A stretch of 64,000 bases of DNA from Paramecium sonneborni (Eukaryota > Ciliophora > Oligohymenophorea > Peniculida > Parameciidae), in NCBI GenBank assembly GCA_905182985.1, contig CAJJDN010000132.1:166716-230715 (forward strand), in the 5' to 3' direction. Both the position numbers and the translations under genes were made by a program. The notes beneath the pieces were generated by a model. It was not told the origin of the DNA and made no database searches. It was given only the letters and a program-made list of their open reading frames with translations. This document shows positions 21,201-64,000 of the stretch, piece by piece; the first letter of the stretch is position 1; each line of letters begins with the position of its first letter.

Positions 21201-24200
21201 ATATAAATTTGGCATAAATATATTGATCTTACGATTTATCATCTCAGATTTATTATAACCAAATAAATTACAACATGCTAAATTCAAATTCGTTATTTAT
21301 GCAAACTTTTCTTAAGCTGTTGAAACCAATATTGTTGGCTATGATTCATAACTAATATCCTCACTACTTATTAAAGATATTGCTGTTTTATTCTTCATCT
21401 TATTATTCTAAGTCTATAAATGTCTAGATCTATCCAATAATTCTTCTCCATAATCTTTATCTTATAATACTTCAATAATAAATTTTCCATATAATCTCAT
21501 AGCTTTAGGTAAATTTTAAGTCATTTTTTACATTTTATTCCATAATTCTTCAACTTAAGTAATAGCTAAATTAATTTTAGCACCAATATCATTCATTTTA
21601 CCTAAATCAGGTGAATCTTCTTATAATTAAGACCAAAAGTCCATATGCATTAATGTTGCTCTTTCTATTTTATTTTAAAATGATCTCATATGATTTTAAA
21701 ATGCTAATTCTGTTGCTACATCTAAATTTCCCATATTTTCATTCTATACTGCATTCATTTCATCTTCTATTACCTTTTTATATCTAAATATTATAAACTC
21801 ATTATCTAAACTTGGACATAATTATTCTCCTTATATTAATTCATTTAATGCTTATTATCTTTATTTCNNNNNNNNNNNNNNNNNNNNNNNNNNNNNNNNN
21901 NNNNNNNNNNNNNNNNNNNNNNNNNNNNNNNNNNNNNNNNNNNNNNNNNNNNNNNNNNNNNNNNNNNNNNNNNNNNNNNNNNNNNNNNNNNNNNNNNNNN
22001 NNNNNNNNNNNNNNNNNNNNNNNNNNNNNNNNNNNNNNNNNNNNNNNNNNNNNNNNNNNNNNNNNNNNNNNNNNNNNNNNNNNNNNNNNNNNNNNNNNNN
22101 NNNNNNNNNNNNNNNNNNNNNNNNNNNNNNNNNNNNNNNNNNNNNNNNNNNNNNNNNNNNNNNNNNNNNNNNNNNNNNNNNNNNNNNNNNNNNNNNNNNN
22201 NNNNNNNNNNNNNNNNNNNNNNNNNNNNNNNNNNNNNNNNNNNNNNNNNNNNNNNNNNNNNNNNNNNNNNNNNNNNNNNNNNNNNNNNNNNNNNNNNNNN
22301 NNNNNNNNNNNNNNNNNNNNNNNNNNNNNNNNNNNNNNNNNNNNNNNNNNNNNNNNNNNNNNNNNNNNNNNNNNNNNNNNNNNNNNNNNNNNNNNNNNNN
22401 NNNNNNNNNNNNNNNNNNNNNNNNNNNNNNNNNNNNNNNNNNNNNNNNNNNNNNNNNNNNNNNNNNNNNNNNNNNNNNNNNNNNNNNNNNNNNNNNNNNN
22501 NNNNNNNNNNNNNNNNNNNNNNNNNNNNNNNNNNNNNNNNNNNNNNNNNNNNNNNNNNNNNNNNNNNNNNNNNNNNNNNNNNNNNNNNNNNNNNNNNNNN
22601 NNNNNNNNNNNNNNNNNNNNNNNNNNNNNNNNNNNNNNNNNNNNNNNNNNNNNNNNNNNNNNNNNNNNNNNNNNNNNNNNNNNNNNNNNNNNNNNNNNNN
22701 NNNNNNNNNNNNNNNNNAATAATTCTTCTCCATAATCTTTATCTTATAATACTTCAATAATAAATTTTCCATATAATCTCATAGCTTTAGGTAAATTTTA
22801 AGTCATTTTTTACATTTTATTCCATAATTCTTCAACTTAAGTAATAGCTAAATTAATTTTAGCACCAATATCATTCATTTTACCTAAATCAGGTGAATCT
22901 TCTTATAATTAAGACCAAAAGTCCATATGCATTAATGTTGCTCTTTCTATTTTATTTTAAAATGATCTCATATGATTTTAAAATGCTAATTCTGTTGCTA
23001 CATCTAAATTTCCCATATTTTCATTCTATACTGCATTCATTTCATCTTCTATTACCTTTTTATATCTAAATATTATAAACTCATTATCTAAACTTGGACA
23101 TAATTATTCTCCTTATATTAATTCATTTAATGCTTATTATCTTTATTTCATATTGTCAAGTAAAAAAAAAGAATACCTTATACGTAAACTTATTTCATTA
23201 GGAAATTTTTTAATCTAATTGAAATAAATTTACCCCATCACCATCAAAAGATCTACATCTCTTTCAGTTAAGGTACCTTCTTTAAATAATGGTTTTTGTT
23301 ATCTCTAATTGGTTAATTTCTTTTATTTTAAATAGCAATCTTCCCTTGTACAAGTAGCTTTATGTATTTCTAAGAATCCATCAAGTAACAATGAACAATT
23401 TTGATTTTGTTAAGATTTATAAAATAATTTTAATAAATGATTTGTTAATTGAAGAACTTAATCTGGATCCTAAACTTTATTAAGATTCAATAAAAGAAGA
23501 TCATAATGCATTTTTTCACTTCTAAATATAGCAATTATCATTAATGGCAATCCTGCCAACCAAGCATAAACAGTACCAAAAAATAAAACTCCTTCTAAAA
23601 ATTTTGCAAAGCATAATAGAGTTGCACCCCACATGTTCATGGCTACTAACATTGACCAAGCTTTTTATATGTACATATTATTAAATGGAGATTCAACATG
23701 AATTTTCCAAAAAATAGTGAAACTACCGATCATCATAATTAATATCATCAAATAATCATAATTCCTACCATTCATAAATGTGTAACAAATAACCATTATC
23801 AATTCGTAAGTCAAAAAAACTGCATTAGCTCTTCCTGTCAATTTTGATGAAGCTTCATGTGGTTGATACCTTGACTCATAGTATAATAAGGAAAATAGAG
23901 TACAGAGTATAAAAAATATTATTGTTCCAAAGATTGCTACAATTGCATGTACAATGTGAATATTAGACCAACATTCAACTTCAAAAAGGAGATGTCTAAG
24001 TACTCCATTTTGATCAGATTAACATGCTAACATAGATAATAGCAAATCAATGATAGGCATATAGAGTGCTTGTAAAAAAATGCTTATCAAAAATCTTAGT
24101 AGTATAATTGGCCATGTAAAGGAGCTTTTGGATTTACTGATACTATAACTTAATAAGAAGATGAGCATTAATGCAAATAAAACGAGTCCCAAACACACAT

Positions 24201-56809: not shown

Positions 56810-59189
56810 TCATCTATTAGTAAAATCAAACTTAAAGCTATTATAATTCATCAATCTCTCGGCTGTTTCTACTATTTAAAGGATGGACTCTTGTACTTCC
56901 TGTGATAATATGGTTAATTTAATGATGTTGCTTAATTAAATTGCTATAATAGTTAATTTTTGTTACTTAGTTTTTGGTTAAGGGGTGGGTTAAACAGTTT
57001 CTTACTGTATTTTTATCCATTTTTCTTTGGCTGCATCTAAAGTAACAGGATTGCGTCTATCATAATCATCATAAAAAGTTAAGAATTTTTGATCATATGA
57101 TTCAACAGTGGCATTATCAATTCCTAAATCCACTATGCAACCACAGATTTTCTAAATTGGCACTAAATAATGCAGTGTTGAGAATCCCAATTACAGCCAT
57201 GTAAGATAGTGTACTTAATCATAATTCACCCATTCCCAAAAGGTACATCCTAACTAAATTATGAGTATTGATTTTTACGGAAAATAATAATAGAATTAAT
57301 TCGATATAAAAATCGATCATTGCTTCAGCCATTGCACTTCCTGTTGGAGCAGGCTTTGAGTCTCTTCTAATTAATAAGTATTTTTCTGTCCAATAAATAC
57401 AAACAATTGAGAAAAATGTAAAGCAAACTCCAATAGGTAATAATGCTGAATATAAAAATGTAAACAAAAGTGTCTTGCAAAGATTAGCATATTTTTAAGA
57501 TAAATCAATTGAGGGTCCTTCAAATGCTCTATAATAAAAATAATTTTTACTAATTAGCTTCATTTTAAGTATATTTGCAATTTTCCCCTTATCTGATAAT
57601 TTTTTATCTGACATATAACTTATAAAAATATTTAATGTCTAACAATAAAGTTAGCCATGGCATTATTGAATTAGTAATAAAAATCAACATAACATCTGAG
57701 TTGAGTCCACCTGTTTGCCAAATTGCTTGATTTAAACTTGAAACATCTTCAGTAATAAATAGATTAATAATTAAAGTCAAAATGGCAGTATTGAGAAATT
57801 GAGCTACTCCCATTTTATAAGCCACGCTTACATCATAATCTGTCCTTGTAGCTTACTATTCTAATTCAGCAAATTTAACGATCATTCTAGCTAAAACCAC
57901 ATTTATGATTGAGATGAGAATTGATGAAGCAAAGCCAAGAAGATTAATTAAATATATTTAAGCATTTGAGTCTTTTGAAATATTTTTATTAATGACATTT
58001 TGAAGATAAGACAATCCAAGTAATAAACCAAAACCAATGGCTAACAGAAATAAAGTCATAAGATTAGTAATTAATGTTCTTTTATATTATTCTTTAATTG
58101 TTATTCCTAGATTACCCCAAATAATATCTCCAGGTTCTGGTGCTTTTCTTACTAAAAGATTATTATTTCTAAACTTTTTAAATTCATTTTATTCAAATCC
58201 TAATTAATCTAGCAATATTTAAAACCTTGTCGCTTTAAAGGTTTTACAAATATTATCAGCTTATTTTTCATAATTGTAACTTATTATGCAAATTCCACTA
58301 AAATCGAAAATAGTTGCTCTATTGTCTTCCATATAATCTAATTCTTTTGAAATTTTATCAATTTCTTCTATTAATTGTAGTCTTGATGGAATTGATTTAG
58401 GTATTTTTTTTCCTTCAGCTTCTAATTCAAGTACTTTTGTAAGAACTGTTTCTTTTAGTTGTTTTTGAGTGTTTAATTTTAAATATGGTTGGATTTCATA
58501 TGCAATACATAGTTTTCTTAATTCGACAGTTTCATTTTGAAAGGATTACGTAAAATATTCGTAAATTTCAGTTTCTTTAGCATCTCTTGGAATATTTTCA
58601 ACAATGATTGAAAAATCAGAAGCCAATATAGCAGCATCATCCAATTCCATTGCAATTTTACTTATATGTCTTCTGTAAAATAAGGTCATAAATAAAATAA
58701 CTATTAGGGATATAAAATTTAGAATGCTACGAATTTCGTCGAATTGTCTATTAGATATAGATTATAATTATTACTCATTATCGTTTGTCAAAGAGAATTA
58801 GTTGAAAAAATCTGTTTTACATTTATCAGCTAGAGAAATGTTTAATTAACTACATCGTTTTCCTTAAGAATTAGCATATATATTATATCCGCAACTAATA
58901 GCACTAATAATATTTTAATATATTAATACATATAAGTAAAAACAAGAACTCCAGAAAACACCAAGAAATCAAAATATAATGCGATTCCTGAACCATTGAA
59001 ACTGAATTCATTCCTTGATGAGCATAATGGAATTTCTTCAATTACAGTTGGTAATCCACAACAAGGACAAACATTTGTTTTATCAAGGTCAATATTAGGA
59101 TCTGTCTTTGCAAATTTAGTTGCAGCAGCATGCATCATTGCGATCTAAATCTTTGGAGGCCTTTAGAAATCATCATAAATTGCCTCCAT
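56810..59189 (-). CDS. OSCA/TMEM63 (CSC1-like) mechanosensitive-type channel
   Basis: 770 residues with introns 58904-58929 (26 nt), 57619-57643 (25 nt) and 57214-57229 (16 nt); together they give a length divisible by three. N-terminus: Cys cluster CPCCGLPT, then PLCSSRNEFSFNGSGIALYF and a first TM. A cytosolic RRM-like insert begins FSIIVENIPRDAKETEIYEY, and the family signature APEPGDIIWGNLG precedes the 7-TM block. Within it are LFTFLYSALLPIGVCF, YWTEKYLLIRRDSKPAPTG and, after the 16-nt intron, HYLTWLQLGFSTLHYLVPIQ. A short cytosolic tail follows. Family members form Ca2+-permeable, osmotic or tension-gated channels. Without the 16-nt intron a TGA would cut the protein inside the membrane block. 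Confidence 0.88.
57214..57229 (-). other. Candidate 16-nt intron
   Basis: Minus-strand GTGAATTATGATTAAG. Removal eliminates an in-frame TGA and continues the channel into HYLTWLQLGFSTLHYLVP. The same 16 nt occur in the second gene (60476-60491 and 62946-62961). Confidence 0.55.
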
Positions 59190-59660
59190 TTTTTATTCTT
59201 CGTTTTCTTCAACTCCAATTACTTAAAGAACTTAATTCAACATATAAAAATATCAATTTCTAATTGCTATTTATTAGAGTCTTTAAATAATTAATTTTGA
59301 TAATTTGATTAAATCTGAAATATTATATCATTAATATGATTTTAATATTAGTGAGGGTAAGAATTAAAATATTAAGAGTTTATTGTCTTTTTTGAAGTTT
59401 TTAATTTGATCCAGTCATGTTTATAAGTGAATATTATTTTTTTAGTATTTATGAAATCTTAGCAATTAAACTTTGGTTCCTTAAAAAATTGACAATTTAT
59501 TGACTTTATAGTGATTGATACTAAAATTATAAAAATTGATTGCTTATTTTCGCTACATAGTTGTATTTTTCAGAAAATATAATTTATCTAAAAATTCAAT
59601 AATTTAGAAATTTTCATATCAACAGATAGATCATTTTGATTTTGAATAATTTTTATCTAA
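59190..59660. other. Intergenic, no feature seen
   Basis: AT-rich segment between the start of the first OSCA-like gene and the end of the extended frame of the second. No supported gene. Confidence 0.45.
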
Positions 59661-61101
59661 TCATTTAAAGCAGGTAATAAAAAAAATATTTTTAATGCTG
59701 ACTTAGATATTTGATAATATTTTACTCTCAATAAAGTATTTTTTAAGAAGAATTTTCTCTAACCAAATTCTATTTAAATAATTTCTAACTTTATTTTGCA
59801 TCAAGACATCAAGAAAATATTGCTTTTATATAGATTGTTAGAATATTTTAATCAATCTACAAAATGTATAAGTAATAGATATATATATGATTTACAAACG
59901 TGCATTATTTGATAGTTAAACCATAGCCAGCTCAAATAATTTATATGAAGATCTAGAAATCTTAATTAACAAAAAAATACATAAGAATAATTTTATTTCA
60001 TGAAATAACAATTTCAAATGTTAATCCTAATTATACGAATTTAAGATTATATTAGAATTATATTATTTATAACACATTATATTTAAATCAAGATTAAAGT
60101 TCTTATATTTAATCAATATCTTTGATATTCCTACTATCTAAGGGATGAATTTTGGCTATTCCCGAAGAGATATGATTGATTTAATGAAATTTTTTAATTA
60201 AATTTCTACTATTACAATTTCTTATTACTTAGTTTTTGGTTAAAAATTGGATTAAACAGTTTCCTAATGAAGTTTTATCCATTTTTCTTTTGCTGAATCC
60301 AAAGTAACAGGATTGCGTCTATCATAATCATCATAAAAAGTTAAGAATTTTTGATCATATGTTTCAACAGTGGCATTGTCAATCCCTAAATCCACTATGC
60401 AACCACAGACTTTCTAAATTGGTACTAAATAATGCAGTGTTGAGAATCCCAATTACAGCCATGTAAGATAGTGTACTTAATCATAATTCACCCATTCCCA
60501 AAAGGTACATCCTAACTAAATTATGAGTATTGATTTTTACGGAAAATAATAATAGAATTAATTCGATATAAAAATCGATCATTGCTTCAGCCATTGCACT
60601 TCCTGTTGGAGCAGGCTTTGAGTCTCTTCTAATTAATAAGTATTTTTCTGTCCAATAAATACAAACAATTGAGAAAAATGTAAAGCAAACTCCAATAGGT
60701 AATAATGCTGAATATAAAAATGTAAACATTAAAGTCTTGCATAAATTAGCATATTTTTAAGATAAATCAATTGAGGGTCCTTCAAATGCTCTAAAATATA
60801 AATAATTTTTACTAATTAGCTTCATTTTAGGTATATTTGCAATCTTCTCCTTATCTTATAATTTTTTGTCTGACATATAACTTATAAAAATAATTAACAT
60901 CTAACAATTAAGTTAGCCAAGGCATAATTGAATTAGTAATAAAAATCAACATAATATTTGAATTCAGTCCTCCTGTTTGCCAAATTGCTTGATTTAAACT
61001 TGAAACATCTTCAGTAATAAATAGATTAATAATTAAAGTCAAAATGGCAGTATTGAGAAATTGAGCTACTCCCATTTTATAAGCCACGCTTACATCATAA
61101 T
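59661..61101 (-). CDS. Second OSCA/TMEM63-like gene, 3' part, insertion-free version (cut by N)
   Basis: Covers the C-terminal half of a paralog of the gene at 56810-59189, including MFTFLYSALLPIGVCF and YWTEKYLLIRRD. The 5' end is lost at the N in 61102. Unlike the first gene, the frame does not stop after the shared tail (KWIKLHQETVQSNFQPKTKQ). It runs on TGA-free for about 170 more codons to 59661, through FELAMVQLSNNARLQIIYIS at the site where the other contig carries the 1039-bp insertion. The extension has no homology to the family that I can see; it may be read-through of lost stop codon sequence. Confidence 0.6.
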
Positions 61102-63571
61102 NAGGTAATAAAAAAAATATTTTTAATGCTGACTTAGATATTTGATAATATTTTACTCTCAATAAAGTATTTTTTAAGAAGAATTTTCTCTAACCAAATT
61201 CTATTTAAATAATTTCTAACTTTATTTTGCATCAAGACATCAAGAAAATATTGCTTTTATATAGATTGTTAGAATATTTTAATCAATCTACAAAATGTAT
61301 AAGTAATAGATATATATATGATTTACAAACGTGCATTATTTGATAATTATATTATAGTTCACTAAACATAATTAAACTATTTAAACCTCAAATTTATACT
61401 CCAGATAAAACGTATAAAAAGAAAAAAAATAAAATTGTAATTGTAATTGAATAAATGTTATCTTCGTCTTCTAACAATAAGAATTTGAATTTAATCATAA
61501 GTGCAATCCTTAAATTAATTTAAAAAGTTATGATTCTAAGTTCACTTAAATACAATCTGTTAATTGAGAATTTTCTCTAAAAATTGCATAGTGCATAGTA
61601 TACAGGTATAACTTTATATTTTTGTATTTAATAACACTTTAAAAATTCTTTATAATTAAGCAAAGATAGAATGAATTTAAATTAATATAGAAAAATATTT
61701 ATTTTTTGAATTCGTGAATTAAAAAATAAAACGCTGCGATAGCAAACTTTTAAAAATTAACCAAAATGCAGAAAAAAAAATAATTTTACAGAATTTATAT
61801 TGATGAAGAGGATGAACTATTTGCTATTTATTTTATATCTCATTGATTTCTAAATTAATTTTCTCTAAATCAATTGAGAAAAATAATATTACAATTTTAT
61901 TAAGATTGCAAAATAACGTTTAGGATTAATTGTAAAAATAAAAATTATATATAAGGTATGTTTTTATATAATAAATACTTTTCATCAACAAGCTGCTTTT
62001 AATATGATAAAAAAAAATGAAAAGAAAAAAACAATTAATTCTGAAATGATTATCAATAAATAAAAAGAAATAATCAAATATTATTTATAATCAAAAAAAG
62101 TTATTATGAATAATTCTAAAGCCCATTTAGATGAGATTTGCTATTAAACTTATAATTTGGAAAAATAATAATAAAAAAAATGCAATTTTGAATTAATTTC
62201 TTTTAAAAGAAAATTGAAAAAATACTGAACATAATTGTTTTAATTTTTATTTTGTAAAAAGTAATTTACCTGTAATCCTTTACACGCAATCATTGTAAAA
62301 ATAAATTTATAAAATGTTGCCAAGAATGAATGAACGGCTTAAATGTCCTGAAAAATTTTTACATAAGTGTTTAATTTAGCAATAGTTAAACCATAGCCAG
62401 CTCAAATAATTTATATGAAGATCTAGAAATCTTAATTAACAAAAAAATACATAAGAATAATTTTATTTCATGAAATAACAATTTCAAATGTTAATCCTAA
62501 TTATACGAATTTAAGATTATATTAGAATTATATTATTTATAACACATTATATTTAAATCAAGATTAAAGTTCTTATATTTAATCAATATCTTTGATATTC
62601 CTACTATCTAAGGGATGAATTTTGGCTATTCCCGAAGAGATATGATTGATTTAATGAAATTTTTTAATTAAATTTCTACTATTACAATTTCTTATTACTT
62701 AGTTTTTGGTTAAAAATTGGATTAAACAGTTTCCTAATGAAGTTTTATCCATTTTTCTTTTGCTGAATCCAAAGTAACAGGATTGCGTCTATCATAATCA
62801 TCATAAAAAGTTAAGAATTTTTGATCATATGTTTCAACAGTGGCATTGTCAATCCCTAAATCCACTATGCAACCACAGACTTTCTAAATTGGTACTAAAT
62901 AATGCAGTGTTGAGAATCCCAATTACAGCCATGTAAGATAGTGTACTTAATCATAATTCACCCATTCCCAAAAGGTACATCCTAACTAAATTATGAGTAT
63001 TGATTTTTACGGAAAATAATAATAGAATTAATTCGATATAAAAATCGATCATTGCTTCAGCCATTGCACTTCCTGTTGGAGCAGGCTTTGAGTCTCTTCT
63101 AATTAATAAGTATTTTTCTGTCCAATAAATACAAACAATTGAGAAAAATGTAAAGCAAACTCCAACAGGTAATAATGCTGAATATAAAAATGTAAACATT
63201 AAAGTCTTGCATAAATTAGCATATTTTTAAGATAAATCAATTGAGGGTCCTTCAAATGCTCTAAAATATAAATAATTTTTACTAATTAGCTTCATTTTAG
63301 GTATATTTGCAATCTTCTCCTTATCTTATAATTTTTTGTCTGACATATAACTTATAAAAATAATTAACATCTAACAATTAAGTTAGCCAAGGCATAATTG
63401 AATTAGTAATAAAAATCAACATAATATTTGAATTCAGTCCTCCTGTTTGCCAAATTGCTTGATTTAAACTTGAAACATCTTCAGTAATAAATAGATTAAT
63501 AATTAAAGTCAAAATGGCAGTATTGAGAAATTGAGCTACTCCCATTTTATAAGCCACGCTTACATCATAAT
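59672..63571. repeat. Assembly duplication around N at 61102, with an insertion in the right copy
   Basis: 59672-59914 matches 61103-61345 (offset 1431), and 59915-61101 matches 62385-63571 (offset 2470). The change in offset, 1039 bp, is the insertion at 61346-62384. One substitution is visible (t60696 versus c63166, Ile to Val in the channel). The two contig ends therefore represent two versions of one locus. Confidence 0.9.
61346..62384. mobile_element. Candidate internal eliminated sequence (IES), 1039 bp, TA-bounded
   Basis: The insertion lies between gaTA (61344-61345) and aaTA (62383-62384); the empty version at 59911-59915 has a single TA (gaTAg). This is what precise Paramecium IES excision leaves. 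The right end, read inward, is TATTGCTA, matching the consensus TAYAGYNR at 7 of 8 positions. The left end at the exact boundary (TAATTATA) is poor, but nine bases inside there is TATAGTTC, also 7 of 8. Content is very AT-rich, with no gene seen and no transposase. If retained it adds a stop (62290-62292) to the reading frame it interrupts. Confidence 0.72.
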
Positions 63572-64000
63572 ATGTTCTTGTAGCTTACTACTCTAATTCA
63601 GTAAATTTCACAATCATTTTAGCTAAAACGGTGTTAATAATTAAAATAAGAATAGATGAAGCAAAGCCAAGAAGATTAATTAAATATATTTAAGCATTTG
63701 AGTCTTTTGAAATATTTTTATTAATGACATTTTGAAGATAAGACAATCCAAGTAATAAACCAAAACCAATGGCTAACAGAAATAAAGTCATAAGATTAGT
63801 AATTAATGTTCTTTTATATTATTCTTTAATTGTTATTCCTAGATTACCCCAAATAATATCTCCAGGTTCTGGTGCTTTTCTTACTAAAAGATTATTATTT
63901 CTAAACTTTTTAAATTCATTTTATTCAAATCCTAATTAATCTAGCAATATTTAAAACCTTGTCGCTTTAAAGGTTTTACAAATATTATCAGCTTATTTTT
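62290..64000 (-). CDS. Second OSCA/TMEM63-like gene, insertion-containing version (5' end beyond window)
   Basis: Same gene as 59661-61101, but continuous to the right edge of the window, so its N-terminus lies outside. It includes the signature APEPGDIIWGNLG near 63860, MFTFLYSALLPVGVCF, and the 25-nt and 16-nt introns in the same places as the first gene. The frame enters the 1039-bp insertion after the LAMVQL codons and stops at TGA 62290-62292. Tandem with the gene at 56810-59189, and strongly similar in the membrane block (the 57219-57467 and 62951-63199 stretches encode nearly the same residues), showing recent duplication. Confidence 0.82.

Follow-up and report, generated by a model that had tools for sequence, protein, structure and literature searches.

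In Paramecium, internal eliminated sequences (IESs) are removed between pairs of TA dinucleotides by a domesticated PiggyBac transposase during the formation of the macronucleus; they range from 26 bp to about 5 kb, and 93% of those in P. tetraurelia are under 150 bp, as described in PMC3464196. The density given for P. sonneborni is about 1.05 IES per kb (PMC8354472). Incompletely excised intergenic IESs are already documented and are fairly ordinary. According to PMC8354472, mean IES retention in P. tetraurelia is 0.8%; as an average across species, retention exceeds 10% for 5.4% of the IESs between genes and for 0.7% of those within genes, a gap that the paper interprets as weaker selection on intergenic DNA. 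In P. tetraurelia, mixtures of IES+ and IES- molecules at one locus are described for somatic IESs, as measured by read counts (PMC7606892, PMC8467633), and in P. sonneborni the mobile IES families FAM_2183, FAM_2938 and FAM_2317 are described as having a repeat end that is also the IES edge (PMC8354472).

The locus analyzed here, an insertion of 1,039 bp in P. sonneborni, has features of each of these systems. Like the incompletely excised IESs in the account of PMC8354472, it is AT-rich, has TA at both edges with one TA left at the empty site, lies between genes, has no detected coding match and occurs in both states in one assembly; unlike most of them, it is longer and has a poor left end consensus, and its retention is deduced from contigs. 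It shares with the somatic IESs of P. tetraurelia the mixture of IES+ and IES- forms at one locus, although the state of those IESs was measured by read counts and that of the insertion is read from two contig ends. As in the mobile IES families, compared here by their published description, a repeat end coincides with the edge of the insertion; unlike in those families, the repeat covers 102 bp at one end, is 75% identical to its longest match, on contig C11, and has few copies among the matches listed.

The window, a stretch of 64,000 nucleotides, is part of the 336,076-bp contig C132, one of 289 contigs in a genome assembly of 91.5 Mb, and a single N at 61102 joins two overlapping contig ends within the window. 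When 59600-61101 was aligned with 61103-63573, the two ends were identical over 240 bp (59672-59911 and 61103-61342), after which the right contig alone carries 1,039 extra bases before a second common block of 1,190 bp (59912-61101 and 62382-63571). Across these 1,430 common bases there is one mismatch, T at 60696 in the left contig and C at 63166 in the right. The left contig end (59672-61101) therefore has the 240 and 1,190 bp in the excised state, and the right one (61103-63571) overlaps it in the insertion state. The breakpoint slides by 3 bp (ATA), which is all that the edges have in common. In its TA-ended form the insertion, a putative IES in the retained state, starts with TA and spans 61344-62382; the right-hand TA is at 62383-62384, and one TA stays after removal, at 59913-59914 in the left contig. 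Searching the genome with 59600-61101 placed the left flank in these two contig ends only, among the 12 matches listed; the rest belonged to the tandem gene copy (92%) and to relatives further removed (67-77%), and the match lists of the genome searches are lower bounds. The alignment thus bears out what the preliminary description had reported from the letters of the window: nearly identical contig ends with 1,039 extra bases in one of them, the coordinates with TA at both edges and exactly one TA left, and one locus in two states.

Chance alone would give a TA-bounded indel in 1,034 of the 41,094 distinct 1,039-bp deletions in the window (2.5%), and the TA frame is accordingly suggestive, pointing to an IES without proving it. 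The assembly analyzed appears to be the published P. sonneborni assembly of PMC8354472, which was made with an overlap assembler, followed by a scaffolder and a gap closer; for the contig assembler a minimum alignment of 99 bp at 99% identity is given, and for the gap closer the minimum is unstated in that account. As the 3 bp common to the edges of the insertion are too few to confuse an assembler, both junctions probably derive from real molecules.

Overlapping ends are routine in the parts of the assembly surveyed, which comprised 260 kb from C132 plus 50 kb from C1 (about 310 kb of the 91.5 Mb). There, 14 of 17 N-runs join overlapping contig ends, and 13 of these 14 overlaps are exact (432-1,871 bp, 100% identity, no gaps), the fourteenth being the insertion locus. 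Two further N-runs gave no match when tested for overlap, one of them with just 1.5-2.8 kb of flank, and the third lies at the contig start. The first 14.8 kb of the contig (C132:1-14835) read as N. Gaps of the overlap type also occur within the window at 21868-22717, 27951, 31305 and 47033. It seems that contig ends extended into a gap passed each other and stayed unmerged. Therefore, the duplicated flanks need no biological explanation, while the insertion does; in the parts surveyed, only the insertion makes this locus special.

The insertion is intergenic, lying between two tandem channel genes on the minus strand. In the right contig, protein comparison places the 3' part of copy 2 at 62558-64000; its last exon follows a short intron and ends in a TGA stop at 62558-62560, and residue 1 of the window protein P0001 matches at 64975, outside the window. 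P0001 has 764 residues and the C-terminus IQELQS, and its P. tetraurelia relatives have similar ends. The left contig repeats this gene end at 60088-61101, with the same TGA stop at 60088-60090, 173 bp from the empty TA. On the other side, the tandem paralogue, copy 1, extends over 56844-59243 by protein match and starts 669 bp from the empty TA. The earlier view that the insertion interrupts the 3' frame of the channel gene, and would truncate that gene, came from following a frame across the short last intron and does not hold. A position within the channel gene is ruled out by the stop, which comes after the last intron and 173 bp before the insertion; with the next copy 669 bp away, retention truncates neither gene.

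Both PHM7_cyt and Anoctamin domains of Pfam scored above cut-off in the channel gene, which we take to be OSCA/CSC1/TMEM63-like from the database name CSC1/OSCA1-like and from general knowledge of the family. A 482-residue piece of copy 1 gave nine database matches: P0001 itself at 93%, seven relatives from P. tetraurelia, P. pentaurelia or P. sonneborni (five at 75-84% and two at 45-47%) and a ninth match at 25% identity. Four pieces of the P. sonneborni protein, P0006, match contig C166 of the assembly at 96.5-100% identity. Tetrahymena, which the low GC had suggested as the host, was rejected on these Paramecium matches. No match to the channel fragment was found among solved structures. 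The tandem pair of the window occupies 56844-59243 and 62558-64000; two of the P. tetraurelia relatives, P0004 and P0005, each come from a contig of 463,379 bases and so probably share one. A tRNA search of the window with the bacterial code reported none.

New in this analysis is that the last 102 bp of the insertion with its right-hand TA (62283-62384, plus strand) are a diverged member of a dispersed repeat whose homology to a copy on C11 ends exactly at the TA edge. That copy, C11:863336-863444, gave the longest match, with 82 of 110 columns identical (75%; E 4e-15 against the 3-kb locus). Despite 300 bp of flank in the query, the alignment runs through seven identical bases and then breaks off with the final base of the TA, as is expected of an element end. 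Hence an independent copy and the contig comparison agree on this edge. This support for the edge comes from the C11 copy: the homology of C19:458576-458641 (49 bp at 90%) is cut by the N-run that it adjoins, and C54:324027-324119 (47 bp at 83%), also next to an N-run, diverges before the element end. Thus, measured as a mobile IES, the insertion has a right end that coincides with the C11 copy and not with that on C54, and a left part for which no second copy was listed.

The repeat was also searched for by pattern. With up to 3 mismatches, a 25-base pattern had 3 hits versus 0 for the reversed control, and a 24-base pattern of the element end had 84 hits (36 + 48) versus 63 (26 + 37) reversed, so that the latter pattern tells nothing beyond its zero-mismatch places, C11 and the window, which were its two sources. 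The copy numbers are lower bounds, as a query with the whole insertion listed C19 without C11 or C54, while C11, C54 and C19, but not the insertion itself, came up when the C11 copy was the query. The assembly contains a dispersed repeat of about 105 bp, two copies of which abut N-runs; it may be the terminal part of a family of germline repeats that somatic DNA has partly kept.

AT-richness, earlier offered in support of an IES, does not set the insertion apart, as its GC content is 18.6% versus 18.3% in the neighbouring intergenic DNA (59254-60087). The claimed inner end matching TAYAGYNR is not diagnostic either: at the actual edges the left end scores 4/8 and the right end 7/8, a best end of at least 7/8 is expected by chance in 10.6% of TA pairs, and TATAGTTC at 61353, probably the end that was meant (7/8 by eye), lies nine bases inside the actual missing edge. 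No terminal inverted repeat beyond chance was found in the insertion, 30% of control pairs scoring equally, and a repeat scan showed short two-copy and partial inverted matches only. In 7 frames of the insertion all Pfam hits were weak and below cut-offs, leaving no coding match; transposase coding was rejected for the same reason. With E up to 1, Rfam gave no match in 59600-62700 or in L002, which speaks against a known small RNA gene behind the conserved 49-bp block, a reading that was rejected. No second full copy of the insertion was listed in its own genome for queries with the whole of it, with 61344-61500 or with 61700-62250.

An IES that is incompletely excised is the most likely explanation of the 1,039 bp, and we hold it with some confidence. 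The host is a Paramecium, the insertion has TA on both sides with one left at the empty site, and at 1,039 bp it is within the known size range of IESs. That the insertion is an IES, as the preliminary description had proposed, is probably right given the two states, the one TA left and the repeat end at the edge. Incomplete excision, also proposed there, is likely the cause, as read from contig states rather than from a retention fraction. Speaking against an IES are the left end at 4/8, a right end no better than chance, the missing terminal inverted repeat, the unusual size and the one mismatch, which could mean two alleles or paralogue mixing. Being intergenic, long and poor at its left end, and perhaps derived from a transposon, such an IES is a reasonable candidate for incomplete excision. 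Under this scenario, an IES of P. sonneborni would sit between the two tandem channel genes, and in the new macronucleus the domesticated PiggyBac excisase would cut at both TA dinucleotides, with the ends then joined and one TA left. Some of the many macronuclear copies would escape the cut, and IES+ and IES- molecules would both be sequenced. Each state may then have been taken up by one contig end, after which the assembly would have failed to merge the ends.

Developmental excision with macronuclear retention is what we infer in preference to alleles or contamination, which would account for the same two contigs differently. The insertion could be a normal IES, fully excised in the macronucleus, with its contig end coming from contaminating micronuclear DNA. 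Judging by ploidy, germline molecules would make up only a tiny part of the total DNA and are thus unlikely to have won at this one gap; in addition, the other 13 of the 14 overlapping gaps have no such insertion. We therefore consider contamination unlikely, even though P. sonneborni was left out of one analysis in a paper of 2023 on account of micronucleus-derived sequence in its assembly (PMC10195154). An allelic difference, in which only one of two germline alleles has the insertion and the macronucleus contains both alleles, is slightly less probable still. It could draw on the one mismatch in the 1,430 common bases. However, a 305-bp block of the left contig (60424-60728), the T at 60696 included, matches the tandem gene copy base for base, so paralogue mixing explains the mismatch; the 13 other overlaps have zero mismatches, and cells after autogamy are fully homozygous, as stated for the strains of PMC10195154.

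An artefact of assembly or library, with one junction chimeric or with the contig ends coming from two loci, would not be out of place at an unmerged overlap beside a tandem gene pair, where assemblers err. It is nonetheless very unlikely, given that the left flank is at only these two places among the matches listed, that a chimera would need to rejoin the flank at precisely the right base, 1,039 bp on, with no more than 3 bp in common, and that a dispersed repeat ends at the very same edge. The least probable of the four is a recent Tc1/mariner-like transposon, polymorphic at a TA site and outside programmed excision. The TA target and the dispersed terminal repeat would suit such an element, but the insertion has neither the terminal inverted repeats, at least beyond chance, nor the transposase gene of Tc1/mariner elements, no coding capacity having been detected in the 7 frames with Pfam, and a C11 match of 75% identity (90% over 49 bp of C19) is unlike a recent insertion of a live family.

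Returning to an incompletely excised IES, a more far-reaching version of it is conceivable, though we think it improbable. The copies on C11, C19 and C54 and that in the window could belong to one dispersed family of long IESs that is poorly excised and persists somatically, and the insertion, 669 bp upstream of the tandem channel copy, could alter the expression of that copy heritably in an RNA-guided manner; no published family was matched here.

As a single case the locus matters little, but one assembly here neatly displays both states and one end of the element. The locus also gives a warning about that assembly, which contains unmerged contig ends, and hence false tandem duplicates, along with some retained germline-type DNA; these can distort gene models and inflate or confuse the tally of tandem duplicates. 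Six pairs of identical matches to the 24-base pattern lie 1.07-1.32 kb apart, two on C5 and one each on C14, C23, C39 and C97, which suggests that the same false duplication occurs elsewhere in the assembly.
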